From the NCBI RefSeq assembly GCF_003390885.1, contig NZ_QMEL01000001.1, positions 62,001 to 126,000 on the forward strand: DNA of 64,000 nt, written 5' to 3'. This document shows, in pieces, positions 46,051 to 62,390 of the stretch. The notes beneath the pieces are model-generated. The model was given only the letters and a program-made list of their open reading frames with translations. It was not told where the DNA came from and did no database searches. The first letter of the stretch is position 1. Every line of letters begins with the position of its first letter. The position numbers and the translations under genes were made by a program. The stretch is from Pelagibacterium sediminicola (lineage in GTDB: Bacteria > Pseudomonadota > Alphaproteobacteria > Rhizobiales > Devosiaceae).

Positions 46051-46067
46051 GTGTTTGGAAAGGCATC

Positions 46068-46130
46068 GCTGCCCCTCATCCGTCTCGCCCTTCGGGCGAT
46101 CCACCTTCTCCCACGAGGGAGAAGGGTAAC
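46068..46130. repeat. CCTCATCCGTC/TTCTCCCACGAGGGAGAAGG repeat
   Basis: CGCCCTTCGGGCG and CTTCTCCCACGAGGGAGAAG hairpins form a compact element like those scattered through alphaproteobacterial genomes. It lies 21 bases before the lipoprotein gene end and could terminate it. Confidence 0.55.
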
Positions 46131-46150
46131 CGGGGGGGGCGATCTCGGGC

Positions 46151-46684: not shown

Positions 46685-46724
46685 GGCGCCTCTTCTATCA
46701 GATCGGCGCGGGACCGGAAGATGC

Positions 46725-46755
46725 AAAAAACGCCGCCCCCGAAGGGAGCGGCGCT
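46725..46755 (-). terminator. Intrinsic terminator after the ligM-like gene
   Basis: On the minus strand AGCGCCGCTCCC (46755-46744) pairs with GGGGGCGGCGTT (46737-46726 region), TTCG loop, followed by six U. It lies 31 bases past the stop at 46787. Confidence 0.88.
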
Positions 46756-46786
46756 CTTTTGAAAGCCGGTGGAGGAACGGTCCGGC

Positions 46787-48190
46787 TTATTTGCGGGTGC
46801 GCCAGCTATCGGCGTAGTTCTCGCGCGCCTCGCGGGCGTAGGGGGTGGGCGAAACGCGGACGCGGATCTCGGCCTGCTTGTGGGTTTCGGCCGAGGTCTT
46901 GCCGGTCGGCTCGGGCTCACCCCAGAGCATGGTGAGCACGTCGCCTTCCTGGACGTCGGCGTTGACGACGCCGAGCGAAAGGACGCACCGCTCGTTGAAC
47001 GAATAGCCGTTGAACATCGACATGCCGACCATCTTGCCGTCCTTCATGACCATGTCGGCCGAAGAGGAGGCGTAGTTGGGCTGGGGGAAGTCGATCCACT
47101 TGTAGGGTGTGCCGTCCTCGAAGGCCGAGGCGATGACCTTGAGGACGTCCTCGCGGTTCCACTCGAAGGTGACCTTCTTGCGGTTGGTCTGGCCCTTCAT
47201 CTTTTCGAGCGCGGCCTTGCCGATGAAATCGTCCTTCTTCCAGCCGATATAGAAGTCGTAGCCCAGTTCGAACGGATTGACGTAGTAGTCCTCGATATTG
47301 TCGGAAACAAAGCTGCCGCCGATGGCACCCGAGGCTTCGTAGCTGTCGGCGCCCAGCCATTCGCGGTAGGCGGCCAAGAGGCCATCGCCCGAATAGATGC
47401 CCGGCAGGGGCGAGGGAATCCAGCCCGATTCGAGCGTGTTGGTCGAATAGGCCCGCGAGCCGCAGCGCACGAGATCAACGCCAGCTTCCTTGGCCGCATC
47501 GAGGATGCACGAGAGGATATAGCTCTTGTCCTCGTACGGGCCCCAGATCTCGAGACCCGGCGCGCCCGACATGCCGTGGCGCAGGGCCTGCACCTTTTTC
47601 GATCCGATATTGATGTGGTCGACGTGGAAGAACTTGATGTCCGGGATCGGACCGCGGTTCAACTTCTCGAAGATCTTGTTCGCCTCGGGACCCTGGATCT
47701 GGTAGCGGTAATGGGTGCGGAACACCCGCTCGCCCTCGGGGCGCGACGGAGAGCGCGGGTCGTGCGTGATGCGCACGTTCCACTTGCCATAGGCGGCGTT
47801 GAACAACAGCCAGTTCGAGGTCGGTGCGCGGCCCACGAGGACAAACTTGTCCTCACGCTCGCGGAAGATGATGTGGTCGCCGATGACGTGGCCGGCCGGG
47901 GTCACGGGCACGTAGTGCTTGGCGCGGTTGAGGCTGAAATTGGCAAACGAGTTGATGCCGTGATGGGACAGGAACGCTTCGGCGTCCGGGCCCTCGACGA
48001 TCACTTCGTCCATGTGATGGGTCTGGTCGAACAGGACGGCGGAATTGCGCCACGCCCACTGTTCGGTGCGCCAGTTGGAAAATTCCGGCGCGACGACCGG
48101 GTATACATACATCCCGATCCTGGAATTGCGGAGCCGGCCCACAATGTCGGGGTTTTCTTTCATGATATCGGCAAGACTGGTGTGCGCCAT
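46787..48190 (-). CDS. LigM/DesA-like tetrahydrofolate-dependent aryl O-demethylase
   Basis: 467 residues of the GcvT/aminomethyltransferase fold, close to LigM and DesA, which move the methyl group of vanillate, 3-O-methylgallate or syringate to tetrahydrofolate. Strong family words: NSRIGMYVYPVVAPEFSNW, RTEQWAWRNSAVLFDQTHHM, ALRHGMSGAPGLEIWGPYE, NTLESGWIPSPLPGIYSGDG, SYEASGAIGGSFVSDNIEDY and MSMFNGYSFNERCVLSL. Length equals LigM (about 470), not DmdA (about 370). The exact methoxy-aromatic substrate cannot be told. Single-gene unit with its own terminator and a TGTATACA palindrome 31-40 bases upstream of the ATG. The THF-recycling genes ligH and metF are not in the window. Confidence 0.85.
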   Translation of the reverse strand: MAHTSLADIMKENPDIVGRLRNSRIGMYVYPVVAPEFSNWRTEQWAWRNSAVLFDQTHHMDEVIVEGPDAEAFLSHHGINSFANFSLNRAKHYVPVTPAGHVIGDHIIFREREDKFVLVGRAPTSNWLLFNAAYGKWNVRITHDPRSPSRPEGERVFRTHYRYQIQGPEANKIFEKLNRGPIPDIKFFHVDHINIGSKKVQALRHGMSGAPGLEIWGPYEDKSYILSCILDAAKEAGVDLVRCGSRAYSTNTLESGWIPSPLPGIYSGDGLLAAYREWLGADSYEASGAIGGSFVSDNIEDYYVNPFELGYDFYIGWKKDDFIGKAALEKMKGQTNRKKVTFEWNREDVLKVIASAFEDGTPYKWIDFPQPNYASSSADMVMKDGKMVGMSMFNGYSFNERCVLSLGVVNADVQEGDVLTMLWGEPEPTGKTSAETHKQAEIRVRVSPTPYAREARENYADSWRTRK

Positions 48191-48220
48191 GGCAATCTCT
48201 CCCTTGGGTTTACGCTTATG

Positions 48221-48230
48221 ATGTATACAT
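48221..48230. promoter_or_regulatory. GntR-type operator candidate upstream of the ligM-like gene
   Basis: ATGTATACAT, a perfect 10-bp palindrome with the TGTATACA core common to FadR/VanR-group GntR operators, 31 bases before the start codon. No GntR gene is in the window, so the regulator is unknown. Confidence 0.45.
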
Positions 48231-48344
48231 ATGCGCTGGTTCAGGGGCGAAAAGCAAGTGTATTTCGCCAGGGCACAGGTGACATGCGCACATTATTTCG
48301 CGTGCGTCGTCTTGTGCTCTGCCTCCTCGCTTTTCCAGCGAAAG

Positions 48345-48500
48345 CCGAAATCCGGAACGAGTCCCGGAATGACATTGATGACTCTGGCCGATACCTGCCC
48401 CATGCTCGCCTGTCACCCCGGGATTCATTCCCGGGGTCCAGACCGAACCCGCCGCAATCGCGGGAAACTCGATAATTCCGTCAGAACCTGAAGCGATCTA
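48345..48500. repeat. MITE-like element, copy B (left end lost)
   Basis: Matches copy A from TCCGGAACGAGTCCCGGAAT to the right terminus GTCAGAACCTGAAGCGATCT(A). It includes CACCCCGGGATTCATTCCCG and GGTCCAGACCGAACCCGCCG. The left inverted repeat cannot be found. Confidence 0.8.
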
Positions 48501-48581
48501 AAGAGCCGGGATGAACGGGTTTGCAGCCCCGCCTCGATCTCCCTCGAGCTCGGTGCGGCCGTCGGCTCGGCCGCGGCCTCC

Positions 48582-50519
48582 TCATGACACCGACCGCACA
48601 AACATTGGCCCTCCGCGCCAGCGGGGGAAACCATAGCCATGTATCTCGACCAGATCGATATCGGCTGCCTGGCGTACGATACCTTCCGCAAGAATCCGTT
48701 CGCCCTCCGCCGCCATCTCGGCGACAAGGCTGTCCGCGATCTGCTGGCGGGTCCGGGTTTTGCCGGGTCCCACCGAACCTGCAAGCAACTTCATGACATC
48801 TTCCGACATGACGGGTGTGCGGCTCCCCGAAACGTAATCATACCACCCGGCGCCGACCTTTTGTCCCTTTCGCCCGGCGCGCACGAGTATGTCGCCAAGC
48901 GTTTCGGCGATTTGCGTGCCCGCCGAGCGGGCGGCCTCGCGCTGAGCGAAAGCAATGTCCAGACCTCCGAGGTCCTGGGCCTCGAACGGCCCCATGGCAA
49001 ATCCATAATCGCGCATTGCAGCATCGATTTCCGCGATGGAAATCCCGCGGCGCACCAGGTCTTCGGCTGCGGCGCGATACCGTTTGAGAATGCGATTGCC
49101 GACAAACCCTTCGCAGACGCCGGACCGCACCGGGATCTTGCCAAGGCGCCGCGCCAGCGAAATGGCTGTCGCCAAGACGGTCTGGCTGGTCTGTGCCAGC
49201 GGTACAATTTCGAGCAGCTTCATGATATTGGCGGGGCTGAAGAAATGAAGCCCGATGAAGCGCTCCAGCCCGGAAACGGGTTCGGCAATCGCGCGCGGAT
49301 CGAGATATGATGTGTTGGTCGCCAGAATGGCGTCGGGCCGGCATATCCTGTCGAGCCGCCCGAACAGCTCCTGCTTGATGGCGATGTCCTCGAACACCGC
49401 CTCGATCACCAGATCGGCCGCCGCCAGTGCGGTAAGATCGGATATCGCGCTGAATCGCGCCAATCTCGCCTCGGCCTCAGCGTGGCTCAGCCGCCCGCGT
49501 TTGACTGTTCCTTGGTAAAGCGCCTTCAGATTGGTTTTGGCCCGTTGAGCGGACTCCAGGTCGCGTTCAACCAGAGTGACGGTCAGCCCCGCATCGAGAA
49601 AGGCGGCTGTGATGCCGATCCCCATCGTACCACCTCCTACGACGCCGATCTGTTCGATCGGAAGAGAGGCAATGTCTTTGAGGTCGGCCGGGCGGAGCGC
49701 GGCGCGTTCTGCAAGAAAGACATGGCGAAGCGCGGCTGCCTGCGGGGCGGTGCGCAGTTCAAGAAAGGCTCGCCTCTCGAAAGCCATTGCCTCATCAAAA
49801 TCATGTGTCGTCGAAAACTCTATGCTTTCCAGCGCCTTGAGCGGGGCCAGCTCGCCCCTGGCGCGTCGCGTCAGGATCTGGCGCTGAGCCTCCCATGCAA
49901 AATTCCCCGCATGCTGCGGACGCTGCGAGATCGCCGGCGGCAACGGACGATGAAGCGCTTCGCGGAGATAGCTGACAGCCTCCGTCATCAACTCGCCATC
50001 GATCACTTCGTCGACAAGACCAACCGCTAGAGCCTCCGGGGCGGAAATGGGCTTGCCGGAGGTGATGAGGTCCACCGCGGCATTGACGCCGATGAGACGG
50101 GGCGTCCGGACCGTGCCCGACGCACCGGGAATGACCCCGAGCGCGACTTCGGGAAAGCCCAGCGAAGCGTTCCGCGCCGCCAGCCTGAACCGGCACCCCA
50201 ACGCCACTTCCAGCCCACCGCCGAGGGCAGCGCCATGAATGGCGGCAAGCCAGGGTTGGGGCGCGTTCTCGATAGCGGCAACCAGGTCCGGCAAATGCGG
50301 CGGCGCGGGCGGCTTATCGAACTCGTTGACGTCGGCGCCGGCAATAAAGGTACGGCCTGCACAGAGCAGAACCACGCCCCGGACGCCGGCATCCGCGCCC
50401 AGACTGCCCACCACCTCGAGGAGTTGCTCCCGCAGCGCCTGGCTCAGCGCGTTGACTGGTGGATTGCTTACGGTAACGATTGCGATTTCAGCGTCGCGGG
50501 TAAGGGTAACGAGCTTCAT
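48582..50519 (-). CDS. Bifunctional enoyl-CoA hydratase / 3-hydroxyacyl-CoA dehydrogenase (FadJ-like)
   Basis: 645 residues. The N-terminal crotonase domain (1-190) has both catalytic glutamates in GAALGGGLEVALG and LGFPEVALGVIPG. The C-terminal hydroxyacyl-CoA dehydrogenase (about 290-640) has the NAD motif IGVVGGGTMGIGITAAFLDA, catalytic His in IGLHFFSPANIMKLLEIV, and VCEGFVGNRILKRY. Performs steps 2 and 3 of beta-oxidation. ATG at 50519 is preferred (AGAGGAA six bases upstream) over 50552. Divergent from the PaaG-like gene; together with the ligase-dehydrogenase-thiolase operon it completes one beta-oxidation round. Confidence 0.92.
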   Translation of the reverse strand: MKLVTLTRDAEIAIVTVSNPPVNALSQALREQLLEVVGSLGADAGVRGVVLLCAGRTFIAGADVNEFDKPPAPPHLPDLVAAIENAPQPWLAAIHGAALGGGLEVALGCRFRLAARNASLGFPEVALGVIPGASGTVRTPRLIGVNAAVDLITSGKPISAPEALAVGLVDEVIDGELMTEAVSYLREALHRPLPPAISQRPQHAGNFAWEAQRQILTRRARGELAPLKALESIEFSTTHDFDEAMAFERRAFLELRTAPQAAALRHVFLAERAALRPADLKDIASLPIEQIGVVGGGTMGIGITAAFLDAGLTVTLVERDLESAQRAKTNLKALYQGTVKRGRLSHAEAEARLARFSAISDLTALAAADLVIEAVFEDIAIKQELFGRLDRICRPDAILATNTSYLDPRAIAEPVSGLERFIGLHFFSPANIMKLLEIVPLAQTSQTVLATAISLARRLGKIPVRSGVCEGFVGNRILKRYRAAAEDLVRRGISIAEIDAAMRDYGFAMGPFEAQDLGGLDIAFAQREAARSAGTQIAETLGDILVRAGRKGQKVGAGWYDYVSGSRTPVMSEDVMKLLAGSVGPGKTRTRQQIADSLVAEMAAEGERILAEGIVRQAADIDLVEIHGYGFPRWRGGPMFVRSVS

Positions 50520-50664
50520 CGGAAATTCCTCTGACTGAAGTGAAATCCGCACAAATAACTGATTTTAAGCACAAATTTCAGATTTCTCGGTTGGCTGGAA
50601 ACGCCTTCTGTGCAAGAGTTGGCGAATAGCGTTCGCGTAAATTTTGTGAGACGGGAGACGAGGG

Positions 50665-51459
50665 TTGCAGGCTTCGGATAGTGTTCTTTCGGCAGTCGAG
50701 GATGGCGTTCTGAAGCTGACGCTGAACCGGCCCGACAAGCTCAACGCGTTCAATATCGAAATGCATGTGGCGCTGCGGGCCGAGCTGGAACGCGCCTGTG
50801 ACGATACCACAATCAGGGCTGTCCTTTTGACGGGCTCGGGGCGCGCCTTTTCTGCCGGGCAGGATCTGAGCGATCGCGATCCGCGCAAGCGGACCGCCCC
50901 GCACGATCTGGGCCATTCTCTCGACACCTATTACAACCCCGCCATCCGTCTCATCCGCGATCTGCGCAAACCCGTGGTCGTCGCCGTCAACGGCGTGGCG
51001 GCAGGCGCCGGCGCCAATATCGCGCTGGCCTGCGATATCGTGATTGCCGCCCGTTCGGCCAAATTCGTACAGGCGTTTTCCAAGGTCGGGCTGGTGCCGG
51101 ACGCCGGCGGAAGCTGGACGCTTCCCCGTATTCTCGGGGAACCCCGCGCCAAGGCCCTCATGTTGACGGGTGAACCGCTTGCCGCCGAAACGGCTGCCGA
51201 ATGGGGTCTCATCTGGAAAGCCGTCGACGATGTGGATCTTCTCGATCAGGCCGGCCAGCTTGCACGCAAGCTTGCCAAAGGCCCCACGATCGGACTTGGT
51301 CTGACCAAACATCTGATCCAGCTTGCCGCCTCCAATACGCTCGACGCCCAGCTCGACCTCGAGCGCGACAGCCAGCGTGTTGCCGGCAACAGTGCCGACT
51401 ATGCCGAAGGTGTCGCCGCCTTTCTCGACAAGCGCCCGCCGGTTTTTCGCGGGGAGTGA
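50665..51459 (+). CDS. PaaG-like enoyl-CoA hydratase/isomerase
   Basis: 264 residues, crotonase fold, strongly PaaG-like: SAGQDLSDRDP, YYNPAIRLIRDL, AVNGVAAGAGANIALACDIV, FVQAFSKVGLVPDAGGSWTL with the isomerase aspartate, and LDLERDSQRVAGNSADYAEG. PaaG isomerises 1,2-epoxyphenylacetyl-CoA to the oxepin and also shifts double bonds. No paaABCDE or paaZ is in view, so a role in isomerising an unsaturated ring or acyl-CoA made by the neighbouring enzymes is as likely. TTG start at 50665 is the only family-consistent start seen. Ends 23 bases from the NmrA-type gene, convergent. Confidence 0.87.
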   Translation: MQASDSVLSAVEDGVLKLTLNRPDKLNAFNIEMHVALRAELERACDDTTIRAVLLTGSGRAFSAGQDLSDRDPRKRTAPHDLGHSLDTYYNPAIRLIRDLRKPVVVAVNGVAAGAGANIALACDIVIAARSAKFVQAFSKVGLVPDAGGSWTLPRILGEPRAKALMLTGEPLAAETAAEWGLIWKAVDDVDLLDQAGQLARKLAKGPTIGLGLTKHLIQLAASNTLDAQLDLERDSQRVAGNSADYAEGVAAFLDKRPPVFRGE

Positions 51460-51482
51460 TCCCCGCCCCGGAAAGGAAGCGA

Positions 51483-52361
51483 TCACTCCCCCCTTTTGTT
51501 CTGTTCAGCGCAAAATGCCGCCAGGTGATCCGCCACGCGCCCTAAGGCGCGGCCAGCGAACAGCGCCGCTTGCGGAGACAACAGATCATATTCACCCGCG
51601 CCCGACGCCAGGCGGATGCCGATCTGCGCTTCGACCGCAAAGGGCGGCAAACCCCGTTCCGCAAGAATACGGCCATAGTCGACGCGGTCGAGCTCGCTCG
51701 CCGTCACCGCCCGCCCCCAGACCTGGCTCGCCAGCCCGGCAACCTCATGCAGATCGAGCGCCTCTGGGCCTGTGAGCTCGTATATCCGGTTCGCGTGTCC
51801 CGGCTGGGTCAGTACGGTGGCGGTGGCCTCGGCCACGTCGCGGCGGAAGATATAGCCCACTTTGCCTGCGGCTCCCGGCAGCGTTAGCGAGCCGGTTTCC
51901 CACGCTCCCACCAGGGCATTGTCGAGATTTTCGACGAAATGATTGTTGCGCAGGATCGTATAGGGCACGCCCGAATCCATGAGGTAGCGCTCGCTATCTT
52001 CATGAACCGCGGCATAGGGAAAGAGGCTTTCGCGCTTTGGATTGATAAAGCTCGTATAGACGAGCCTTCCCACGCCTGCATCGCGGGCGGCATCGATCGC
52101 CGCCCGATGCTGTTTCACCCGCGCTTCGACCGGGGCGGTTCCACAGATGATCAGCGCGACGTCCGCCCCCGAAAAGGCGGCCCGCATGGTTTCAGGCCGG
52201 TCAAAATCCGCCGTGACGGTTCTGATCCCGCCTTCCGCAAGATCGCCGATTTTCTCTGGGTTTCTGGTACCCGCAACGATTGCGGAGCCAAATCCGCGCT
52301 GTGTGAGGGCTGAAACAATTTTCCGCCCCAACTGACCGGATGCGCCGGTGATACTGATCAT
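51483..52361 (-). CDS. NmrA-like NAD(P)H-binding oxidoreductase (QorB type)
   Basis: 292 residues, atypical short-chain dehydrogenase. The N-terminal nucleotide-binding motif is MISITGASGQLGRKIVSALT, followed by AGTRNPEKIGDLAEGGIRTV, VGRLVYTSFINP and TILRNNHFVENL, as in NADPH:quinone oxidoreductase QorB/YtfG and NmrA-like redox sensors. Whether it reduces a quinone or another substrate is unknown. Last gene of the leftward operon; 60 bases after the ligase. Such genes are not standard members of beta-oxidation operons, so it may act on an aromatic intermediate. Confidence 0.83.
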   Translation of the reverse strand: MISITGASGQLGRKIVSALTQRGFGSAIVAGTRNPEKIGDLAEGGIRTVTADFDRPETMRAAFSGADVALIICGTAPVEARVKQHRAAIDAARDAGVGRLVYTSFINPKRESLFPYAAVHEDSERYLMDSGVPYTILRNNHFVENLDNALVGAWETGSLTLPGAAGKVGYIFRRDVAEATATVLTQPGHANRIYELTGPEALDLHEVAGLASQVWGRAVTASELDRVDYGRILAERGLPPFAVEAQIGIRLASGAGEYDLLSPQAALFAGRALGRVADHLAAFCAEQNKRGE

Positions 52362-52421
52362 GGTTTCTCGGAAGGTTAAGCGTTTGGTGCAGTATGGGGA
52401 CGATCGAGCGGTGAGATCACG

Positions 52422-53954
52422 CTAGATGCGCTTGTCTCGACCGGCCCAATAATCTTCGCGGATCACGTTCTTCTGGATTTTGCCAATCGGCGTCTTGGGA
52501 AAATCGGTCACCAGCTTGATCAGGCGCGGCCGTTTGAAGCGCGCCAGCCGTTCGGTGCAGTGACCGACCAGATCCTCTTCGCTCGCGGTGCTCCCGGCCC
52601 TGAGCTGGACATGGGCCGCGGGAACTTCGCCCCATTTGTCGTCAGGAATGCCGAACACGGCGCATTCGGCTACCGCAGGGTGATCGTAGAGCACGTTCTC
52701 GATTTCCTTGGGATAGATGTTCTCGCCGCCGGCGATGATCATGTCCTTCGAGCGGTCGACCAGCGTCAGGAAACCATCGGCATCAACCGTCGCCAGATCG
52801 CCACTCCAGGCCCAGCCATGGCGCCAGAAAGCCTCGGTCTGCTCGGGATCGTTATAATATTCGAGCATGACATTGGCACCGCGCGCGACGATTTCGCCGA
52901 TCTCGCCCGGCTTGACCGGGTTGCCGTCGCGATCGAGCACCGCCAGATCGGCGTTATAGACCTGCCGGCCGACGCTGCCGAGCTTGTGCGGCAGGTCGTC
53001 CGACTTGAGCGCCGCCACGATGCCCATCTCCGATTGCCCGTAGAACTGCGTCAGCCTGAGTCGCGGCAACTTTTCAAGGATCGTCTTCTGGACCCAGTCC
53101 GGCATGGGTGCGCCGGAAAAGTTGAGCTTGGTCCAGACGGAGTAGTTTTCGGCATCGAAATTCTCGTCGCCCACCAGCATGCTGACCTGGGTAGGCACCA
53201 TGAAGGCAGCGCTGATACCGTAAGTCCGCGAGAGCCTGGCGTATTCCCCGACATCCCATTTGGGAAGAAGGACGGTGGTCGCCCCGACCAGGACGGCAGG
53301 CTGAAGCATGATATTGAGCGCTGCCACATGGAACAGGGGCGTGACGACGGCCACGACGTCCTTTTCCGTGATACCGCTTTCAACGACGACCGTATGCGCC
53401 GTGACCACCCGGCTCTTGTGGTTGGCCAAAACCCCTTTGGGACGGCCGGTGGTACCGCCCGTATAGGTCATGCAGAAGGGATCATCCTCGTCGATCTCGA
53501 CGCCGGGATCGGTATCGGGATAATTGGCGAGGAGGGCGTCGAAGGTCGGCTCGTCGCCGGCCGCACTGCCAATGAGGATCGTCTGCCTGAGCCTGGGCAG
53601 GCGCTCGGCGGCCTGCTTCACGCGGTCGGCAAAGCAATCTTCATACAGCAGAACCTCCACATCCGCCTTGTCGAGGACATAGACCAGTTCCTCTAGCGCA
53701 TAGAGCACCGAGACATTGACGAAGACGCAGCCTGTGCGCGACGCGCCGAAGAACGCCGTCACATATTCCGGGCGGTTGCGCGACAGAATGGCAACCTTGG
53801 CGCCCTTGGCCAGTCCCATGTCGAGCACGGCATGAGCGAAACGGTTGGCGTCCCTGTCCAGGTCGCCATAGCTTTTCTCTACCCCGTGGCAGATGATCGC
53901 CGCCTTGCTCGGAAAGCGCTCCGCGGAACGCCGCAGCATATCTCCAGTCAACAC
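52422..53954 (-). CDS. Acyl-CoA ligase (AMP-forming)
   Basis: 510 residues, ANL superfamily. The P-loop is MTYTGGTTGRPKGVLANHKS, then LNFSGAPMPDWVQ, FYGQSEMG, the hinge GWAWSGDLATVDADG and C-terminal DRSKDMIIAGGENIYPKEIE; the catalytic lysine lies in TPIGKIQKNVI. The set is typical of acyl- or aryl-CoA ligases activating carboxylates; chain length or ring preference cannot be read. GTG start at 53954 has GGGAGG seven bases upstream. 22 bases downstream of the acyl-CoA dehydrogenase. Confidence 0.92.
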   Translation of the reverse strand: MLTGDMLRRSAERFPSKAAIICHGVEKSYGDLDRDANRFAHAVLDMGLAKGAKVAILSRNRPEYVTAFFGASRTGCVFVNVSVLYALEELVYVLDKADVEVLLYEDCFADRVKQAAERLPRLRQTILIGSAAGDEPTFDALLANYPDTDPGVEIDEDDPFCMTYTGGTTGRPKGVLANHKSRVVTAHTVVVESGITEKDVVAVVTPLFHVAALNIMLQPAVLVGATTVLLPKWDVGEYARLSRTYGISAAFMVPTQVSMLVGDENFDAENYSVWTKLNFSGAPMPDWVQKTILEKLPRLRLTQFYGQSEMGIVAALKSDDLPHKLGSVGRQVYNADLAVLDRDGNPVKPGEIGEIVARGANVMLEYYNDPEQTEAFWRHGWAWSGDLATVDADGFLTLVDRSKDMIIAGGENIYPKEIENVLYDHPAVAECAVFGIPDDKWGEVPAAHVQLRAGSTASEEDLVGHCTERLARFKRPRLIKLVTDFPKTPIGKIQKNVIREDYWAGRDKRI

Positions 53955-53976
53955 CCCTTCGCCTCCCTAAATCGCG

Positions 53977-55134
53977 TTACACGCCACGGATCAGCGCATG
54001 GCCGATCCGCATCTTCATGAGTTCATTGGGGCCATCGACAAGCTGGGTCACCTTGGCGTCGCGCATCAGGCGCTCGACATGGTTCTCGCGATAATTGCCG
54101 TAGGCGCCGAAGACCTGCACGGCGTCGATGGTGACTTTCATCGCCATGTCCGAGGCCTGCATCTTGACCATGGCGCACAGCTTTGCGGCCTCGCGGCTGG
54201 TCGTATCGTCGGTCTCATCCATCCAGCGGGCGACCTGATAGACCAGCGCGCGGCTGGCCTCGATCTGCGTTGCCATGTCAGCGAGCGAGAACTGGATCGC
54301 CTGATGCTCGATCAGCGGCTTGCCGAAGGTGTGACGCTTCTTGGCATAGGCCAGGGCGTGCTCGAACGCGCCCTGGGCGACGCCGAGGGCCTGCGTGCCG
54401 CCACCCAGGCGGCCCAGATTGAGGGCCTGCGCGAAGAGCTTGAAGGCGCCGCCGATTTCACCCAGCAACTGCGAGCGCGTCACCCGCACATTGTCAAAGA
54501 ACACGTCCGCCGGCGGCAGCTGGCGGAAACCCATCAGTTCATCGGCCTCGCCCACAGAAAGCCCTGGCGTACCCGCATCGACGACGAAGGCGGAAATGCC
54601 GCGCGTGCCCAGGCTCGGATCGGTGAGAGCGAACACCAGATACATGCCGGCGGCGCCAGCCAGCGAGGCAACGCGCTTGTGGCCGGAGATGAGCCAGCCA
54701 TCGCCGTCCGCAACGGCCGTCGTCTTCATCTGGGCCAGGTCGGCGCCGGTATCGGGCTCGGTGATCGCAATGCAGGTCAGCGAGCCCTCGGCCATGCTCT
54801 TGATGGCGCGCTCGCGCAGCGCTTCGTCCTGGCAATGGGTGAAGATCGCATAGGCACAGGCCTCGTGCGACACGATGTTGGCATAGCCGCCATCAACCTT
54901 GGCGATCTCTTCCTGCGCCAGCACCAGCGACATGGTATCTGCGCCTTCGCCCCCCTTTTCCTTCGGGATGTGCAGGCGCAGCAAGCCTGCATTTTCCAGC
55001 AGATGCAGCCCCTCCCACCACTGCTTGGAGTGGCCCGTCTGGCGGTCGATATCGATGATGATCTTGGAGAGTTCGCGGGCAGCTTCGGCTGCTGTGTCAC
55101 GAACGGAGATTTGCGCGGGTGTGAACACGTGCAT
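53977..55134 (-). CDS. Acyl-CoA dehydrogenase, Asp at the usual catalytic Glu
   Basis: 385 residues, flavin acyl-CoA dehydrogenase. CIAITEPDTGADLAQMKTTA and SGHKRVASLAGAAGMYLVFA mark the FAD/substrate middle domain; LGRLGGGTQALGVAQGAFEH and RHTFGKPLIEHQAIQFSLAD the C-terminal domain; VDGPNELMKMRIG the end. In most relatives the latter reads (Y/A)EGxxE, where the Glu before Gly is the catalytic base (Glu376 in MCAD); here it is Asp367. Either Asp takes over or the base is elsewhere, which could point to an unusual substrate such as a cyclic acyl-CoA. Between thiolase (51 bases) and ligase (22 bases). Confidence 0.9.
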   Translation of the reverse strand: MHVFTPAQISVRDTAAEAARELSKIIIDIDRQTGHSKQWWEGLHLLENAGLLRLHIPKEKGGEGADTMSLVLAQEEIAKVDGGYANIVSHEACAYAIFTHCQDEALRERAIKSMAEGSLTCIAITEPDTGADLAQMKTTAVADGDGWLISGHKRVASLAGAAGMYLVFALTDPSLGTRGISAFVVDAGTPGLSVGEADELMGFRQLPPADVFFDNVRVTRSQLLGEIGGAFKLFAQALNLGRLGGGTQALGVAQGAFEHALAYAKKRHTFGKPLIEHQAIQFSLADMATQIEASRALVYQVARWMDETDDTTSREAAKLCAMVKMQASDMAMKVTIDAVQVFGAYGNYRENHVERLMRDAKVTQLVDGPNELMKMRIGHALIRGV

Positions 55135-55185
55135 GGAAAATTCCTCTTCTGAATTAAGTCGGCGACGCAGCGCTGGGATGAAGCC

Positions 55186-56376
55186 TTACTGGCCCAGATT
55201 GCGCGTTTGCCCTGCGTCGTCCGCGACCAGTATGTGAATGCAAAGCGCTGCGGGCTCACCGAGGACCGTGCCCCCTGCGTTATGCGCCAGCCCGACACGC
55301 GCACCGTTGACCTGGCGCGGACCGGCCTGCCCGCGCAGTTGCTGTGTGATCTCGACGATCTGGGCGACGCCCGTTGCGCCGACCGGATGCCCGCGAGAGA
55401 TCAGGCCTCCACTGGTATTGACCGGCATATGGCCGCCGATCCGGATGGCGCCGGTATCCACCAGCTTGGGCCCCTCATTGGCAGCGCAGAAGCCCAGTCT
55501 TTCGTAGAGCATCAATTCACTGGCCGCAGTGGTGTCGTGGACCTCGGCCAGCGACAACTCCTCGGGGCCGATCCCGGCCATTTCATAGGCCGCATCCGCG
55601 CCGCGTTCCGCGATGCCCACGCCATCGGGGCTGCCCGCTGACCTCACAACGGATGCGCCGATCCGGATTCCGGCACGACCGATTTTTTTCGCATAGGCTT
55701 CCGAGCAGACCACGAGGGCCGCGGCCCCGTCTCCGATCGGCGAGCACATGAGCCGGGTCAGCGGTGGCGCCGATACAGGCGAGGCGAGAATTTCATCGAC
55801 GCTATAGGCGTTCTGATATTGCGCGAGGGGATTGAGCGCGCTGTTGCGATGGCTCTTTTCGGCAATCATGGCCACATGCCGGAGGGTTGCGCCCGTCCGT
55901 TCCATATAGGCGGCGAACCTCTGGCTGGACTCCTCCAGGAACACACTGCCGCCGCCATCACCGGACAGTTTTTCGACATCGGTCGCCGATGCCAGTGCGC
56001 GCAGCGTAACGGCGCGGTCGGGATGAAAAAGCTTTTCCACGCCCAGCACCAGCACCACCTCATAGAGCCCTGCACCGACGGCCATCCAGGCCTGGTGTAG
56101 CGCCGATGATCCCGACGCGCAGGCATTGTCGACATTCACGATCGGCAGGCCGCCAATGCCCATGGCGCTCAGCACGACCTGGCCGCGTACGGCCTCCTGG
56201 CCCGTCACGATCCCGGCCATGGAATTGCCGACGAATGCCGCCTGTAGATCGCGCGCTTCCACCCCGGCATCGGCAAGGGCCGCCGTCACGGCTTCGCGCC
56301 CCAGATCCTTGAGCGATCGATCGTGGTACTTTCCGAAGCGGGTCATGCCGACGCCGCAAATATTGACTGTGCGCAT
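55186..56376 (-). CDS. Thiolase, SCP2/lipid-transfer type
   Basis: 396 residues of the SCP2-type thiolase group. The nucleophile Cys is in VNVDNACASGSSALHQAWMA; HDTTAASELMLYERLGF replaces the HDCF-type motif; NTSGGLISRGHPVGATG carries the catalytic His; LAHNAGGTVLGEPAAL sits at the C-terminus in place of the CxG loop. SCP2-type thiolases often act on branched, sterol side-chain or aryl beta-ketoacyl-CoA. The ATG at 56376 overlaps the permease stop by one base (TGATG), with GGAGA seven bases upstream. No partner DUF35 protein is adjacent. Confidence 0.88.
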   Translation of the reverse strand: MRTVNICGVGMTRFGKYHDRSLKDLGREAVTAALADAGVEARDLQAAFVGNSMAGIVTGQEAVRGQVVLSAMGIGGLPIVNVDNACASGSSALHQAWMAVGAGLYEVVLVLGVEKLFHPDRAVTLRALASATDVEKLSGDGGGSVFLEESSQRFAAYMERTGATLRHVAMIAEKSHRNSALNPLAQYQNAYSVDEILASPVSAPPLTRLMCSPIGDGAAALVVCSEAYAKKIGRAGIRIGASVVRSAGSPDGVGIAERGADAAYEMAGIGPEELSLAEVHDTTAASELMLYERLGFCAANEGPKLVDTGAIRIGGHMPVNTSGGLISRGHPVGATGVAQIVEITQQLRGQAGPRQVNGARVGLAHNAGGTVLGEPAALCIHILVADDAGQTRNLGQ

Positions 56377-57140
56377 CAATGTGTCTCCGTGGTCGGACGC
56401 CAGCGCATCACCCAGCGCTCGAGGAGTTTCATCCCCTCGCTGGCAAGGACTGCGAGAATGGCCAGAACGATGATGATGCCGAAAACCTGGGCGGTATCGA
56501 ACATGTTGCCGGCCCGGGCGATCATCTGGCCCAGCCCGTATTGGCCGGCGATCATTTCACCGACAATGGTGCCGATAAGTGCAAGGCCGATACTGATCCT
56601 GAGCCCGGCAAAGATGAAGGTGAGGGACGATGGCAACAGCACGCGACGGGCAATGAAGCCGCGGCTCGCCCCCATGGTCCGCACCGCATTGACCAGATTG
56701 CGGTCGATTTCCCTGATGCCGGTATAGGTATTGAGCAGCAGAACGAAATAGACAAGCGAAGCGGCCAGCGCCACTTTCGAGCCTTCACCGATGCCGAACC
56801 AGACCAGAAACAGCGGCGCCAAGGCGACGCGCGGCAGGCTGTAGAGAGCCATGATGAACGGCTCCAGCAGCCGGAAGGCGCCGCGCCACTGCGCCAGGGC
56901 GAAGCCGGAGAGGATGCCGAGCACGGCACCAATGAGCAGGCCGAGCAGCGTCTCGCGGACGGTGACGAGTATGTTCATCCAGAAGAACCCGTCGACCAGC
57001 GCTCCGCCCAGCCATGCGAAAATTCTCGAGGGACGGCTCATGGTGAACTCGGTGACGAGGCCAAGACTCGCCGCGCCTTCCCAGATGGCCAGCAGAACAG
57101 CCAGCAGGAGCACCCGGTAAATATTGAGTATGATGTTCAC
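56376..57140 (-). CDS. ABC transporter permease (SsuC/TauC/NitT type)
   Basis: 254 residues, about six membrane helices. The cytoplasmic EAA-like loop NAVRTMGASRGFIARRVLLP with LRISIGLALIGTIVGEMIAG is typical of permeases for sulfonates, taurine, nitrate or aromatic acids. GTG start at 57140 overlaps the ATPase stop by 4 bases (GTGA). Middle gene of the SBP-ATPase-permease set; genes for the importer and for CoA-dependent catabolism are coupled in one operon, suggesting the imported compound is the ligase substrate. Confidence 0.92.
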   Translation of the reverse strand: MNIILNIYRVLLLAVLLAIWEGAASLGLVTEFTMSRPSRIFAWLGGALVDGFFWMNILVTVRETLLGLLIGAVLGILSGFALAQWRGAFRLLEPFIMALYSLPRVALAPLFLVWFGIGEGSKVALAASLVYFVLLLNTYTGIREIDRNLVNAVRTMGASRGFIARRVLLPSSLTFIFAGLRISIGLALIGTIVGEMIAGQYGLGQMIARAGNMFDTAQVFGIIIVLAILAVLASEGMKLLERWVMRWRPTTETH

Positions 57141-57907
57141 GACAGTTGAATCTCTTCCTTGAGGCTGCGCCAGAGCCGGACAAACAGGTCGTTATACTGG
57201 GGATCCTGCACGATGGCCTCGATGTTCCGGGGCCGCGCCAGGGGCACCTCATATTCTTCCTTGACGTGTCCCGGACGAGCACTGAACAGCAACACCCGGT
57301 CGGAAAGGCTGATCGCCTCGGACAGATCGTGCGTGACGAACAGAACCGTCAGGCCGGACTTTTCCCAAAGACGCAGCAACTCCTCCTGGATAAGCAGCTT
57401 GGTCTGGGCGTCGAGCGCGCCGAAGGGCTCATCCATCAGGAGGACTTCGGGCTGCTGGGCCAGCAGGCGCGCGAGTTGAACCCGCTTTTTCATCCCGCCG
57501 GATAGCTGCCAGGGATAGGCGTCGGCGAAATCGCCGACACCCACTCGCTTGAGAAGATCGAGGCAGAGCCCCTCATCCTTGCGGCCAACGGCCTCCAGAG
57601 GCAGCCTCACGTTTTCGAGCGCGGTGTTCCAGGGCAGCAAGGTGTCGCTCTGGAACATGTACCCGATGCTGGGCATGCCCGGTTTGATGGGCTTGCCATC
57701 CAGATAGCACTGGCCTCCGGTCGGCGGCATCAGCCCGGCAATGAGGTTCAGAAGCGTACTCTTGCCACAGCCCGAAGGTCCGACAATTGTGCAGAATTCC
57801 CCACGCTTGAGATCCAGATTTACATTGGCGAGCACCCGCAAGCCGCGCTCGTCATTGCCGAAATCAAGAGACAGACCCTCGACCCGGAGCTTGGCTTCTG
57901 CCGTCAT
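57137..57907 (-). CDS. ABC transporter ATP-binding protein (SsuB/TauB type)
   Basis: 256 residues. Walker A GPSGCGKSTLLNLIAG, Q-loop GYMFQSDTLLPWNTALENV, signature LSGGMKKRVQLARLLAQQ, Walker B VLLMDEPFGALD and H-loop VTHDLSEAI are all intact. Belongs to the same transporter class as the adjacent permease. Of GTG 57919, ATG 57910 and ATG 57907, the last is best spaced from GGAAG. Begins 33 bases after the binding-protein gene. Confidence 0.92.
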   Translation of the reverse strand: MTAEAKLRVEGLSLDFGNDERGLRVLANVNLDLKRGEFCTIVGPSGCGKSTLLNLIAGLMPPTGGQCYLDGKPIKPGMPSIGYMFQSDTLLPWNTALENVRLPLEAVGRKDEGLCLDLLKRVGVGDFADAYPWQLSGGMKKRVQLARLLAQQPEVLLMDEPFGALDAQTKLLIQEELLRLWEKSGLTVLFVTHDLSEAISLSDRVLLFSARPGHVKEEYEVPLARPRNIEAIVQDPQYNDLFVRLWRSLKEEIQLS

Positions 57908-57940
57908 CATTTCTTCCACTTAGCTCGCTGGAGAGGCCGA

Positions 57941-58936
57941 CTATTCCCATTCCGCGGCAAGCCGCGGATCGACCAGATCTTCAAAGGCAACAGGCGTAGC
58001 GATCAGACCGGCCTCGACATAGACATCGTTCATGTGAGCGATGGCCTCGGCGGTGATGACGGGATTGTAAGCCGCAGCCTCGACCTGGGCGATTTCGGCC
58101 AGGAGGTCATCGGGCACAGACGGGAAAATCTGCTGGAGCGTGGAGATCATCAGGCTCGGATCGGCCTTGATATCACGGGCTGCTTCTGCGATGGCGCGAG
58201 CGGCTGCCTTGGCTTTCTCCAGATTTTCCTCGCTGGCGCCCAGCCATTCATCGGTGGCCTGCAGCGAGCTTCCGAGCAGATTTTGCAAAGTCTCGGGAAC
58301 CTCGTCGGTGCGCAGATCCATGAATACCTTGCCGGCGCCTTCATGGGTGATGGTGACCGTTGCCGGCTCCCAGGTCATCTGGGCATCAACCCGGCCGGCC
58401 TGAAGCGCCGGCAGATGCCCACTCAAGCCACCCGTACCAACGATCGTCACGTCGGTGTCCGGGTTCAACCCGGCATCCCGAAGCGCAATGCGCAGGAACA
58501 GATCGGTCAGGCTGCCGGGCGAACTGATGCCGATATTCTTGCCCTTGAGCGCCGAAAAATCACCCGGCTCGACGTCGAGCGCGCTGGAGACGACCAGGGT
58601 GAAGATCGGCTTGTCCTGAAACAAGACGATATTGGTCGCCTCGATACCCTGATTGGCCATGATGAGCGTGCTGCCAACACCGCCGCCGCCCATATCGACC
58701 GCGCCGGCCACCATGGCCCGCTCGGCTTCCGCGCCGCTGGTGAATTCGACGATTTCGACATCCAGGCCGTGCTTTTCGAAATAGCCGCCATCCTGCGCAA
58801 CGTAAAGCACAGCCGAACTCGTCGAAGGCACAACCGACATCGTCACCACACCAAGCTCGCTCGCCGCGACGGACGCCGGCCCGAGCGTGACGGCAGCACA
58901 CAGGGCAAGCGCCGCTTTATTCCAATGTAATCCCAT
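57941..58936 (-). CDS. ABC transporter substrate-binding protein (NMT1/SsuA type)
   Basis: 331 residues. The signal peptide is about residues 1-25 (AALALCAAVTLGPASVAASE). The mature part LYVAQDGGYFEKHGLDVEIV, GGGVGSTLIMANQGI and GKNIGISSPGSLTDLFLRIA matches the NMT1/SsuA/ThiY-like family of periplasmic proteins that bind sulfonates, pyrimidine precursors or aromatic acids. ATG at 58936 follows GGGAGGAAGAAA, a very strong ribosome binding site. First gene of the seven-gene operon; the intergenic region to the divergent iclR gene holds the likely operator. Confidence 0.91.
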   Translation of the reverse strand: MGLHWNKAALALCAAVTLGPASVAASELGVVTMSVVPSTSSAVLYVAQDGGYFEKHGLDVEIVEFTSGAEAERAMVAGAVDMGGGGVGSTLIMANQGIEATNIVLFQDKPIFTLVVSSALDVEPGDFSALKGKNIGISSPGSLTDLFLRIALRDAGLNPDTDVTIVGTGGLSGHLPALQAGRVDAQMTWEPATVTITHEGAGKVFMDLRTDEVPETLQNLLGSSLQATDEWLGASEENLEKAKAAARAIAEAARDIKADPSLMISTLQQIFPSVPDDLLAEIAQVEAAAYNPVITAEAIAHMNDVYVEAGLIATPVAFEDLVDPRLAAEWE

Positions 58937-58988
58937 TTTCTTCCTCCCGATGCGATTTCCTATTGAAACCGGATCATTTCCATGCCAC

Positions 58989-59013
58989 GTTCGCGTATAA
59001 CGAACGCTGTTCG
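58989..59013. promoter_or_regulatory. Candidate IclR operator between iclR gene and transport/catabolic operon
   Basis: GTTCGCGTATAACGAAC (58989-59005), a 5-7-5 palindrome, is followed by GTTCG at 59009, forming a third half-site (CGAAC-3-GTTCG). IclR-family proteins such as PcaR bind GTTCG-type sites, and three half-sites are known in the family. It sits 53 bases from the binding-protein start and 66 from iclR. Confidence 0.55.
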
Positions 59014-59078
59014 CAAAAATAAACTTAAGACGTTTTCCGTGGCCTGTAAAGGGCCCAGGTGGTGGGGGAGTGGTGGAT

Positions 59079-59843
59079 ATGGCCAAAGAGAAACCCGGCG
59101 GGCCCGTGACGCGGACCGTAGGCTCGGTCGCCAGGGCATTGCAGATTATCGAATTTTTGATCGATCATCCCGGCGAGGAACTGGGCGTCACCGAGATCGC
59201 GCGGCACTTGGGAATCGCCAAAAGCACTGCGCATCAATTGATTGCGACGCTCCAGTCGCGCGGCTTTATCGATCAGGATCAGATGTCCTCGCGCTATCGG
59301 CTCGGGTTGCGGACGATGGAGGCAGGCACCGTGGCCGCGGCCAATATCGGAATCGGCCCTGCCCTCACCCCGCTGCTCCAGGAACTGGTCGACGAGGTCC
59401 ACGAAACCTCTTCGATCGGCGTTCTGAGCGGCGATGGCGTGGTTTTGCTGCAACGCGTCGAAGCCGAATCGATTCTGCGTGTGGATCTCAAGCTCGGCAC
59501 GCGGTTGCCGCTGCATAATTCAGCGGTAGGCAGAATGATTCTGGCGACAATGTCACAGGCGGAGCGCCTCCAGAAACTGGAAGGCCTGCAGCTGTCTGCG
59601 GAAGATCGGATGGCGACCGAGGCGGCCATCGGGGAGGCGGCGCAGATGGGCTGTGCGATCGTGCGGGACATTCCGGTCGATGGCATCAGCGCGATCTCGG
59701 TGCCGATCCAGGGCCAGCAGGGACACGCTATCGCGGGTCTTGTCGTCGCCGGGCCGACCTTCCGGTTCGAGCCACTCGATTATCGTGAGACGGCCTGGAA
59801 AATGGCAAAGAAGATATCCGATCGCATGAAGTCTCTTGTCTGA
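59079..59843 (+). CDS. IclR-family transcriptional regulator
   Basis: 254 residues. The N-terminal winged helix reads RALQIIEFLIDHPGEELGVT and EIARHLGIAKSTAHQLIATL; the C-terminal effector domain contains SIGVLSGDGVVLLQRVEAES and GTRLPLHNSAVGRMILATMS, with AISVPIQGQQGHAIAGLVVA. Many IclR regulators sense aromatic acids. ATG at 59079 has GGGGGAG eight bases upstream; GTG at 59070 is less likely. Divergent from the transport/catabolism operon, which it probably controls along with itself. A MITE-like copy begins 18 bases after the stop. Confidence 0.92.
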   Translation: MAKEKPGGPVTRTVGSVARALQIIEFLIDHPGEELGVTEIARHLGIAKSTAHQLIATLQSRGFIDQDQMSSRYRLGLRTMEAGTVAAANIGIGPALTPLLQELVDEVHETSSIGVLSGDGVVLLQRVEAESILRVDLKLGTRLPLHNSAVGRMILATMSQAERLQKLEGLQLSAEDRMATEAAIGEAAQMGCAIVRDIPVDGISAISVPIQGQQGHAIAGLVVAGPTFRFEPLDYRETAWKMAKKISDRMKSLV

Positions 59844-59860
59844 AGGCCGTGCCGCACGGT

Positions 59861-60050
59861 CAGACCGTGTCAGGTCCTGATGGAAACGGTATGGTCGGTG
59901 CCGTGGCGAGATCGCGCTGGGTTCGGGGTCGCGGAATGCCATTGGCGGCTTGGGTTGATACCGACCCCGTTTCCACCTGTCATCGCGGGTCCGACCGAAC
60001 CCGCCGCAATCGCAGGAGCCTCGACGATTCCCTCGGAACGCAGCACTCTA
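59861..60050. repeat. MITE-like element, copy C
   Basis: 190 bp. Left end CAGACCGTGTCAGG, followed by TCCTGATGGAAACGGTATGG; the interior keeps GAGATCGCGCTGGGTTCGGG and GACCGAACCCGCCGCAATCG; the right end GAACGCAGCACTCTA is worn. Its terminal triplet, TAG on the minus strand (60050-60048), is the stop codon of the aldolase gene. It fills the space between the convergent iclR and aldolase genes. Confidence 0.8.
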
Positions 60051-61295
60051 TTGCTTGGAAAGCTTGGCCTGCTCCAGCGACCAGTATTCCATATCGAACA
60101 GGTCTTTTTCACCAATCGGTGAGAATCGGCCATAGCGCTCGGCAGACAAAACGATCCGGGCCGTTTGTTCCGCAAGATCGGCCGCGATTTTAGCAGCCTT
60201 GGCATCGGGGGCGATACCGGCAAGACCCACACCAGGGATCAGAACAACCCTGGGCAGGGGGTCGAGCATGATCTTGTCTGTATCCGCCAGTGCCGCATTG
60301 CGGTTGAAATAATCCGCGTAACGCGTCCGGTAAGAGTCGACTGCGGTTCTCATTTCGCTTCTGTCAGCATCCGGTTTCACGATCAGCGGGAAGGGCTTGA
60401 TGCGGATGACGTGATCGGGCGTTGCGGTGCCACGATGTACGATATTGCAAAGATCGGGGAGGTCGAGATAGGAGCGGATTGCGGCATTGGAGCGGAAATC
60501 CCAGGCCGCCGCAGCGCCAAACGGCCCTTCATATTCACCGAGCACCTCCACCAGACCCGCAAGCAGCAAGGCCGGGGCATCCGCATCGGTATCTTGCGCT
60601 GGCGCCAGCCCGGCGTGATGGGCTTTCAGCTCACCCTCCGCGATCGTGACGAATTCGATCATGCGCTCATACGAAGTCCTGGCATCGGCGCCGAATGTGA
60701 AAAGCCCATGATTTTCGAGCCATAGCCCTTCGCAACCGGTGTTTCGGGAATAGATCTTTTCACCTTCGATCGAAAGATCGAACCCGGGCATGACGTAGGG
60801 AACGAAAGCGACCCGGCCTTCATAAAGTGCCCTGACGCGGTCTTTCATACCCGTTTGGTTGGCCAGCGCCAGCACGGCCGTGGAGTGGCAGTGATCCACG
60901 AAAGCCTCGTCGATGAACCCATGCAGCAAGGCTTCGACCGATGGATTGGGCGCTGAAGGATCGATCAGTGCGTCGCGCAACGCGCGCACCATCTCGGGAT
61001 CCGACAGTTTCGGGCCATCCTTGATCCCCAGCAGCGGCTCCAGCCGCACGGCGGGAAGACCCGGGGCTTCGATATTGCCAAGATCCCAGCCACTGCCCTT
61101 GATGTGCATCAGCCGTGTGCCGTCCCGTGCGGTCACCTTGACCGAGGTGTTGCCGCCTCCATGCATGACCAGATCGGGATCCTGTCCAATGATCTGCGAG
61201 GTATAGATGCGCAATCCGAGTTGCCGATCGTATCCATCCGCTTCGGCCCTTTGCGCAAAAGTCTGCGCTTGTGCGTCGCTCCAACTGCTCTTCAT
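60048..61295 (-). CDS. Class II aldolase, RhaD-type, lacking the dehydrogenase domain
   Basis: 415 residues matching the aldolase half of bifunctional rhamnulose-phosphate aldolase/short-chain dehydrogenases: QIIGQDPDLVMHGGGNTSVK, the metal-binding VDHCHSTAVLALANQ and LWLENHGLFTFGADA, IRIKPFPLIVK, and the linker DLFDMEYWSLEQAKLSKQ that normally leads into the SDR domain. That second domain (about 270 residues) is absent: the frame ends with the TAG provided by the right end of MITE-like copy C, with no SDR remnant before iclR. It may be truncated or naturally single-domain. 72 bases after lsrB, so probably in the lsr operon. Confidence 0.82.
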   Translation of the reverse strand: MKSSWSDAQAQTFAQRAEADGYDRQLGLRIYTSQIIGQDPDLVMHGGGNTSVKVTARDGTRLMHIKGSGWDLGNIEAPGLPAVRLEPLLGIKDGPKLSDPEMVRALRDALIDPSAPNPSVEALLHGFIDEAFVDHCHSTAVLALANQTGMKDRVRALYEGRVAFVPYVMPGFDLSIEGEKIYSRNTGCEGLWLENHGLFTFGADARTSYERMIEFVTIAEGELKAHHAGLAPAQDTDADAPALLLAGLVEVLGEYEGPFGAAAAWDFRSNAAIRSYLDLPDLCNIVHRGTATPDHVIRIKPFPLIVKPDADRSEMRTAVDSYRTRYADYFNRNAALADTDKIMLDPLPRVVLIPGVGLAGIAPDAKAAKIAADLAEQTARIVLSAERYGRFSPIGEKDLFDMEYWSLEQAKLSKQ

Positions 61296-61319
61296 CGTTT
61301 ACCCCTGTTCCAATGCGAC

Positions 61320-61345
61320 GGGCCGCCCACATGTCGAGGCGGCCC
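61320..61345 (-). promoter_or_regulatory. Intercistronic stem-loop after lsrB
   Basis: GGGCCGCC (61320-61327) pairs with GGCGGCCC (61338-61345) with a 10-nt loop. On the transcribed minus strand no U-tract follows, so it looks like an mRNA-stabilising hairpin, common after binding-protein genes, rather than a terminator. Confidence 0.55.
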
Positions 61346-61367
61346 GGTTTTGTTTGCGATATCTGAA

Positions 61368-62390
61368 TTAGAAGTCGAAATCGTTGATGTTGTCGGCTGT
61401 GAACACTGTGCGCTCTGGCAGCAGGATGATGCCGTTGCCGTCGGCTTCGTAATCATAACCCTGGATGGAGTTGGGTTCGACCGTCACGGTGCCCATGCCC
61501 GGCACATCGAGCGTGTCGCCGACGTTGAGCGGACCGTTTTCGATCACATGTGCGGCCACGTAAACCGACAGCGCGCCCTGATCGGTCACGTCCCAAAGCC
61601 CGAAGCGCTTGATCGTGCCGCGCTCGACATAGGGGCGCATCACGTTCGGGGTCGAGAAGCCGACGATGGTGACGTCCTCACGGCCGAGGTTTTCGGCAGC
61701 CTGAGCGGCCGCGGGCAGCGCGTTCGCATCGGGCGCCAGGATGGCGTCGAGATCGGGATAGGCCTCCAGAATGCTTTCCGCTGTCTGCAGGGACTGCTGG
61801 GCATCGTTATAGCCATACTGGGTCGTCACGATTTCCCAGCCAGGATATTCCGTGGCGATCTTTTCCTGAGCAGCGGCCACCCATGCGTTCTGGTCGGTCA
61901 CAGTCGGGCTGGAATAGAAGAACGCGATCTTTGCATTCTCGTTGGTGACATCTTCTGCCGCCATATCGACGAGCATGCCACCGAGTTGTTCCGGGGTGCC
62001 CTGGTTGATGTAATAGCTGCGGCATTCGGGGTCGACGTCGCTGTCCCAGGTCATGACCAGAACATCGCGCTGCATGGCGCGCTTGAGGGCCGGGCATAGA
62101 CCGTCGGGCGAAACGGACGATACGATCACCGAGTCGTAGCCCTGGTTGACGTAGTTGTTGATAAACTGCACCTGGCTGGAAACGCTCGGCTCGGTCGGAC
62201 CATCATAGGTCACGTTCACGCCGATCTCTTCGCCGGCCGCGACCGCGCCCTGGCCGCCGCTGGTGAAAAAGCCCACACCCACGAGCTTGGGAATAAAGGC
62301 GATATCCTGGGCAATCGCAGGCACGGACCCTGCCGACAAGGCAACCAGCGCCGTGGACAGCACGGCTATACTTTTCAGAGTTTTTCTCAT
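61368..62390 (-). CDS. lsrB: Autoinducer-2 binding protein LsrB
   Basis: 340 residues. Signal peptide to about residue 27 ([12 protein letters not shown]). The mature protein is very close to enteric Lsr[105 protein letters not shown] and [16 protein letters not shown]. The AI-2 ligands known from enterics (Lys in IPKLVG, Asp in TWDSD, Asp-Gln in TVTDQN, Pro and Ala in APDANA) are all present, which separates it from rhamnose-binding RhaS. ATG overlaps the lsrD stop (ATGA); GGAGGAG upstream. Confidence 0.94.

Follow-up and report, generated by a model that had tools for sequence, protein, structure and literature searches.

A rare, conserved IclR-associated gene set of Pelagibacterium sediminicola predicted to couple the import of a bulky carboxylic acid to its CoA-dependent degradation

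A 64,000-nucleotide stretch of the Pelagibacterium sediminicola contig NZ_QMEL01000001.1 (positions 62,001-126,000; referred to here as the window) carries seven minus-strand genes at 51483-58936 that appear to link the uptake of a carboxylate to its breakdown as a coenzyme A (CoA) thioester. According to Pfam and NCBIfam profile searches with curated cut-offs, these genes encode, in order, an NMT1/SsuA-type periplasmic substrate-binding protein (331 aa; 57941-58936; PF09084, PF13379), an ATP-binding cassette (ABC) transporter ATPase (57137-57919; PF00005), an ABC transporter permease (56376-57140; PF00528), an SCP2-type thiolase (397 aa; 55186-56379; PF22691, PF00108), an acyl-CoA dehydrogenase (ACAD; 385 aa; 53977-55134) with all three ACAD domains (PF00441, PF02770, PF02771), an AMP-forming acyl-CoA ligase (510 aa; 52422-53954; PF00501, PF13193), and an NmrA-type NAD(P)-binding protein (292 aa; 51483-52361; PF13460, PF05368). 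The gene of an IclR-family regulator lies opposite, on the plus strand (59070-59843, with an alternative start ATG at 59079; PF01614, PF09339). At the other end, a PaaG-type crotonase gene (50665-51459, plus strand) converges with the last gene of the set and is followed by a minus-strand gene for a FadJ-like enoyl-CoA hydratase/3-hydroxyacyl-CoA dehydrogenase (48582-50519; PF02737, PF00725, PF00378), for which the ATG at 50519 is preferred to the longest open reading frame (ORF) start at 50552. From the binding protein to the NmrA-type protein, the genes are separated successively by a 21-nt gap, two 4-nt overlaps, and gaps of 51, 22, and 60 nt, and this spacing, together with the conservation described below, suggests that the seven genes are transcribed as one operon. 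An earlier note on this DNA had described the same seven genes with the IclR gene opposite, and its gene calls, coordinates, and order were all confirmed; its proposal that import is coupled to CoA-dependent breakdown is supported by the gene families and by the conserved gene set. None of the operon proteins scored over the curated cut-off of a listed NCBIfam model that names a substrate.

The IclR gene and the seven operon genes recur as a set in two other genomes. In Rhizobiales bacterium 64-17, they are found in identical order and on identical strands, with 52-77% identity (tblastn of the window genes against the fetched loci), and in a genome from another genus of the same family (G070) in identical order with 71-90% identity. 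In G070, orthologues of PaaG (83.5%) and FadJ (72.7%) also adjoin the operon, and window positions 48601-59845 align with this genome as a single colinear 11.3-kb DNA block of 76% identity that ends at the outer genes, FadJ and IclR. The gene set and order shared with both genomes indicate that the arrangement is more than a product of chance. The eight-gene set is rare in the genomes searched. Thiolases of at least 70% identity occur in 2 of 136 family genomes (P. sediminicola included), the next best in the family reaching 46%, and in a collection of named genomes one thiolase relative reached 70% and the next 51% among the 80 kept of 245. Only the P. sediminicola genome itself was recovered in an order sample (397 genomes, thiolase query, E 1e-120), a class sample (385 genomes, ACAD query, E 1e-110), and a phylum sample (398 genomes, ACAD query, E 1e-100), three samples that overlap and in which G070 was evidently not drawn. 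On plasmids, thiolase relatives of 46-50% identity have neighbour genes that vary between loci and name no substrate, and a plasmid search with the binding protein gave no match at E 1e-20. The G+C fraction of the operon (0.622) is slightly lower than that of the window (0.639), and acquisition of the operon by transfer is likely, though not proven.

The gap between the IclR and binding-protein genes contains three boxes, CGAAC-N3-GTTCG-N7-CGAAC (58989-59013, minus strand), which are kept with equal spacing in all three genomes and represent a predicted IclR-family operator. The exact full pattern matches once per genome, always at this promoter, and the reversed control gave no match; at one mismatch, there are two matches in P. 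sediminicola, one in G070, and two in Rhizobiales bacterium 64-17 (one overlapping the same site). In PMC8222616, three-box operators of alternating direction are described for the IclR family, with the third box required for PcaU binding. By eye, boxes 1 and 2 resemble the group-2 consensus given there, whereas boxes 2 and 3 lie farther apart than in the group-1 consensus. The regulator can be compared with the PcaU/PcaR/PobR-type IclR regulators of aromatic-acid genes: it shares the alternating three-box operator and a weak match to the PcaR/PcaU model, but its score (125.9 bits) is well below the cut-off of 284.75 and its box 2-3 spacing differs. With one mismatch allowed, the window holds two palindromes of this kind; the second (50623-50635, plus strand, one mismatch) lies in the PaaG/FadJ intergenic region without a third box. 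A Markov model predicts approximately 0.008 such palindromes per 145 bp, the length of this gap. The 14-mer GCGAAYARCGTTCG has exact matches in the P. sediminicola genome only at the operon and PaaG/FadJ sites, a partly circular result, as the 14-mer was written after both sites were known. Two further exact palindromes in Rhizobiales bacterium 64-17 lie away from the promoters of the gene set.

The transport genes together constitute an NMT1/SsuA-type ABC importer, with an NMT1-family binding protein (PF09084, 83.3 bits against a cut-off of 20.5) accompanied by SsuB/SsuC-like ATPase and permease proteins whose PF00005 and PF00528 matches are likewise over cut-off; the Pfam and NCBIfam scans of the binding protein both took its longer ORF, to 59086. 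The closest solved structure to the binding protein is 3qsl (E 3.5e-19); no NCBIfam model matched this protein over cut-off, and its predicted structure, built from 4 sequences with a mean predicted local distance difference test (pLDDT) score of 47, was not used. These family names raise the alternative of a sulfonated carboxylate, or one bearing another heteroatom, as the substrate, in whose favor the binding protein matches the SsuA_fam model (TIGR01728; 98.6 bits), the permease matches SsuC (117.2 bits), the ATPase matches nitrate/taurine-type models, and the ACAD matches the 3-sulfinopropanoyl-CoA desulfinase model NF042439 (242 bits). All of these models, as well as the TauC-type ones, fall below their curated cut-offs (163.5 for SsuA_fam and 347 for SsuC), so that the genes do not correspond to an aliphatic sulfonate (Ssu) importer as modelled. 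Moreover, simple desulfonation needs no thiolase, FadJ, or PaaG, and the ACAD scores higher on the models for acryloyl-CoA reductase and cyclohexane-1-carbonyl-CoA dehydrogenase, both still below cut-off. A sulfonate-type substrate is therefore considered quite improbable.

At the usual place of the catalytic Glu in the C-terminal loop, where short- and medium-chain ACADs have Glu after Tyr, the window enzyme has Asp367 preceded by Val366, and Val-Asp is present in all three orthologues. Seven distinct solved ACAD relatives have Tyr-Glu at this site in six cases and Tyr-Thr in one, the cyclohex-1-ene-1-carboxyl-CoA dehydrogenase 7p98; since the latter has Thr at the base position, the window ACAD is not of the 7p98 type at that site. 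Nitroalkane oxidase, a relative of the ACADs, uses an Asp base. In 10 plasmid-borne relatives, picked from the 20 entries listed out of 37 records, Glu is invariably present. According to section 4.3 of PMC11659651, a small residue (Phe, Leu, or Val) before Glu is associated with substrates substituted at the alpha position, examples being isobutyryl-CoA, methylsuccinyl-CoA, and cyclohexane-1-carbonyl-CoA. The case for a branched or alicyclic substrate depends chiefly on the Val-Asp pair, which is suggestive only. Among ACAD-like ORFs in the fetched SCP2-type thiolase loci, Asp occupies the Glu place in 14 of 21 rows, five of which represent the three orthologues (two seen twice), and Asp may be common in ACADs near SCP2-type thiolases. 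The non-orthologous ACAD ORFs concerned lie in L005, L008, L010, L011, L012, L018, L049, and L107, the L010 and L011 rows being possible near-copies. Structural comparison did not separate substrate classes: the AlphaFold2 model of the ACAD (mean pLDDT 87.3, but below 50 at 368-382) ranked 4l1f and 3pfd first in Foldseek, followed by the cyclohex-1-ene-1-carboxyl-CoA dehydrogenase 7p9x (36% identity). Nor does the enzyme reach the model cut-offs for an AliB-type cyclohexanecarboxyl-CoA dehydrogenase, as it scores 162 bits on TIGR03207 and 264 bits on NF043006, against cut-offs of 575 and 650.

In the thiolase, the NACASGS, HDTT, GHPVG, and HNAGG segments are kept in all three orthologues, and its closest solved relatives are the SCP2-thiolase 6hsj (E 1.2e-63) and the BbsB-type chain 7pxp_C (E 3.4e-63). 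It does not score as a benzoylsuccinyl-CoA thiolase (BbsAB), with 238 bits against 750 on the BbsB model, and a candidate OB-fold/zinc-ribbon partner (PF01796) was absent from the P. sediminicola genome and matched once in G070, away from the operon. The closest solved chains to the ligase are 8weu and 8wev, the latter named a feruloyl-CoA synthetase, and its best model is the PRK06187 long-chain-fatty-acid-CoA ligase subfamily; these matches point weakly both ways on the substrate class. The PRK06187 scores (468.9 bits, and 475.8 for the G070 orthologue, against 476), together with the adjoining FadJ-like gene, lend some weight to the idea that ordinary medium- or long-chain fatty acids are what the operon takes up and breaks down. 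This idea is hard to reconcile with the Val-Asp site, the SCP2-type thiolase, and the NMT1/SsuA-type importer, and the rare accessory distribution and once-per-genome operator misfit core fatty-acid use, leaving it unlikely. The NmrA-type protein, whose closest solved relatives are triphenylmethane reductase 2vrb and YtfG 2zcu, is probably a reductase; a quinone- or enone-type reduction would be a plausible step for it in the pathway.

Beyond the operon, the earlier note had assigned the missing hydratase and dehydrogenase steps to the FadJ and PaaG genes. PaaG exceeds the cut-off of the isomerase model TIGR02280 (390.6 over 345.15 bits; 385.7 for the G070 orthologue), while the FadJ-like protein falls below the cut-offs of the NCBIfam FadJ models. 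Two Glu positions carry catalytic meaning for hydratase activity; by eye, FadJ retains Glu in both segments and PaaG has Asn and Lys there, and FadJ rather than PaaG therefore looks like the hydratase. The association of both genes with the operon finds support in their adjoining it in G070 and in the palindrome in their shared gap in the window, and it does not extend to Rhizobiales bacterium 64-17, where neither lies in the 19 kb examined around the operon. A further neighbor, 0.4 kb past FadJ, encodes a LigM-type vanillate/3-O-methylgallate O-demethylase (46787-48190, minus strand; NF047885, 643.8 over 580); at E 1e-60, two of 13 genomes in the genus have it. Its position had prompted the idea that the operon serves a methoxylated phenylpropanoid or another aromatic from lignin, with LigM removing methyl groups, a scheme also favored by the feruloyl-CoA synthetase among the closest ligase chains and by the PaaG family match. 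In a sister genome of the same genus (G124), however, LigM lies beside polA, and the shared block covers window positions 42830-48265 and stops there; the 32 kb examined contain nothing that aligns with window 48266-64000, and no thiolase match was found in that genome at E 0.001. LigM is likewise missing from the 4.5 kb past FadJ in G070 and from the 19 kb examined around the operon in Rhizobiales bacterium 64-17. LigM and the operon thus look like separate units, and the link drawn between them was not borne out. The ACAD residues also suggest a substituent on the alpha carbon, and simple phenylpropanoids have none there; a lignin-derived aromatic is an improbable substrate.

The bad-ali pathway of Rhodopseudomonas palustris and Aromatoleum sp. 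CIB (PMC9795900) shares with this locus a CoA ligase, an alicyclic acyl-CoA ACAD, a hydratase, a hydroxyacyl-CoA dehydrogenase, and an adjoining regulator; it uses the MarR-type BadR, in contrast to the IclR-type regulator here, and the present operon additionally includes an ABC importer and an SCP2-type thiolase. BadI (TIGR03210) was over cut-off in neither P. sediminicola nor G070 (best 104.7 and 119.5 bits, respectively, against 467.6), so that the bad-ali route to pimelyl-CoA is not encoded as known. Accordingly, cyclohexanecarboxylate degradation through this route does not fit either genome; of the earlier suggestion of a substrate other than a straight-chain acid, the general idea stands, supported by the Val366-Asp367 pair read with PMC11659651, and this specific case does not. 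The phenylacetate (paa) pathway resembles the locus in its PaaG-type isomerase, here over cut-off, and its FadJ/PaaH-like dehydrogenase, but its PaaA/PaaC ring epoxidase (PF05138) was found in neither of the two genomes, which indicates that PaaG does not serve the known phenylacetate epoxide route; that reading was rejected. A long shot is an alicyclic pathway independent of BadI, in which the Asp-base ACAD and FadJ would produce a 2-oxo ester and the SCP2-type thiolase would open the ring by thiolysis to yield a di-CoA dicarboxylate; if true, such thiolytic ring opening would be chemistry unlike the hydrolytic bad-ali route. Different clusters combining an NMT1-type importer with an SCP2-type thiolase occur in Mesorhizobium liriopis (L028, 2477-13574) and in a Hoeflea metagenome-assembled genome (L021, 1543-12526). 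As in the operon, a binding protein, ATPase, and permease (27-45% identity) lie upstream of an SCP2-type thiolase (42-43%), and the Hoeflea cluster has an IclR gene; unlike the operon, the M. liriopis locus contains biotin-dependent carboxylase parts, a CoA-transferase III, and a ChsH2-type OB-fold protein, and neither locus matched the window ligase, ACAD, or NmrA-type protein. A search of open-licence literature returned nothing on the combination of an NMT1 importer with ACAD, ligase, thiolase, and IclR genes.

Taken together, these features make it reasonably probable that the locus is a dedicated catabolic unit, controlled by IclR, that takes up a bulky acid, probably a branched or alicyclic one, and degrades it by beta-oxidation. 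In this scheme, the binding protein and the rest of the ABC importer would bring in the carboxylate, the ligase would convert it to its CoA thioester, and the ACAD, with Asp for Glu and Val for Tyr, would dehydrogenate the alpha-substituted (branched or alicyclic) acyl-CoA. FadJ may then hydrate and oxidize the enoyl-CoA, with PaaG shifting double bonds, before the SCP2-type thiolase cleaves a bulky 3-oxoacyl-CoA; IclR would bind the three-box operator and sense the substrate or the corresponding CoA ester. Several observations weigh against this interpretation. The ligase falls short of a fatty-acid subfamily cut-off by only 7 bits. The residue before the catalytic base is Tyr in seven of the 10 plasmid ACADs, Phe in two, and Leu in one, so that three of these relatives would also fit the residue rule, which is not specific, and Asp occurs in 9 of 16 non-orthologous ACAD-like ORFs near SCP2-type thiolases and is thus not specific to the operon. 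The membership of PaaG and FadJ draws on one relative plus one site: both genes are missing from the 19 kb around the operon in Rhizobiales bacterium 64-17, where other enzymes must supply those steps or the substrate differs, and the operator-like palindrome is absent from the PaaG/FadJ gap of G070, contrary to a shared regulon there. Across the whole window, two palindromes at one mismatch were seen against 3.9 expected, only the position of the second being notable, and at one mismatch the 14-mer gave five matches against three for the control in P. sediminicola and one against eight in G070.

Elsewhere in the window, an autoinducer-2 (Lsr)-type uptake cluster, next to an aldolase-like gene, occupies 61368-63819 on the minus strand, with 60048-61295; its binding protein matches LsrB (611.9 over 384), and its permease (62387-63406) has an LsrD match below cut-off. 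In Rhizobiales bacterium 64-17, TonB-dependent receptor-like and PepSY-like ORFs were recognized by eye upstream of the IclR gene (1085-4828 of the fetched locus). Searches of the window yielded no Rfam match at gathering thresholds and no tRNA, and scans for sigma-70 promoters and terminators gave counts at chance level.

Transport-coupled, CoA-dependent catabolic operons are a familiar kind of system; the ACAD residues of the present example are unusual, and its private operator is unusually clean. With a single importer, ligase, and dehydrogenase and a private operator kept in three genomes, the locus offers a compact test case. Identification of its substrate would assign a function to a group of NMT1-type binding proteins and SCP2-type thiolases, which here carry family names only, and would show whether the Val-Asp pair of the ACAD marks alpha-substituted or ring substrates.

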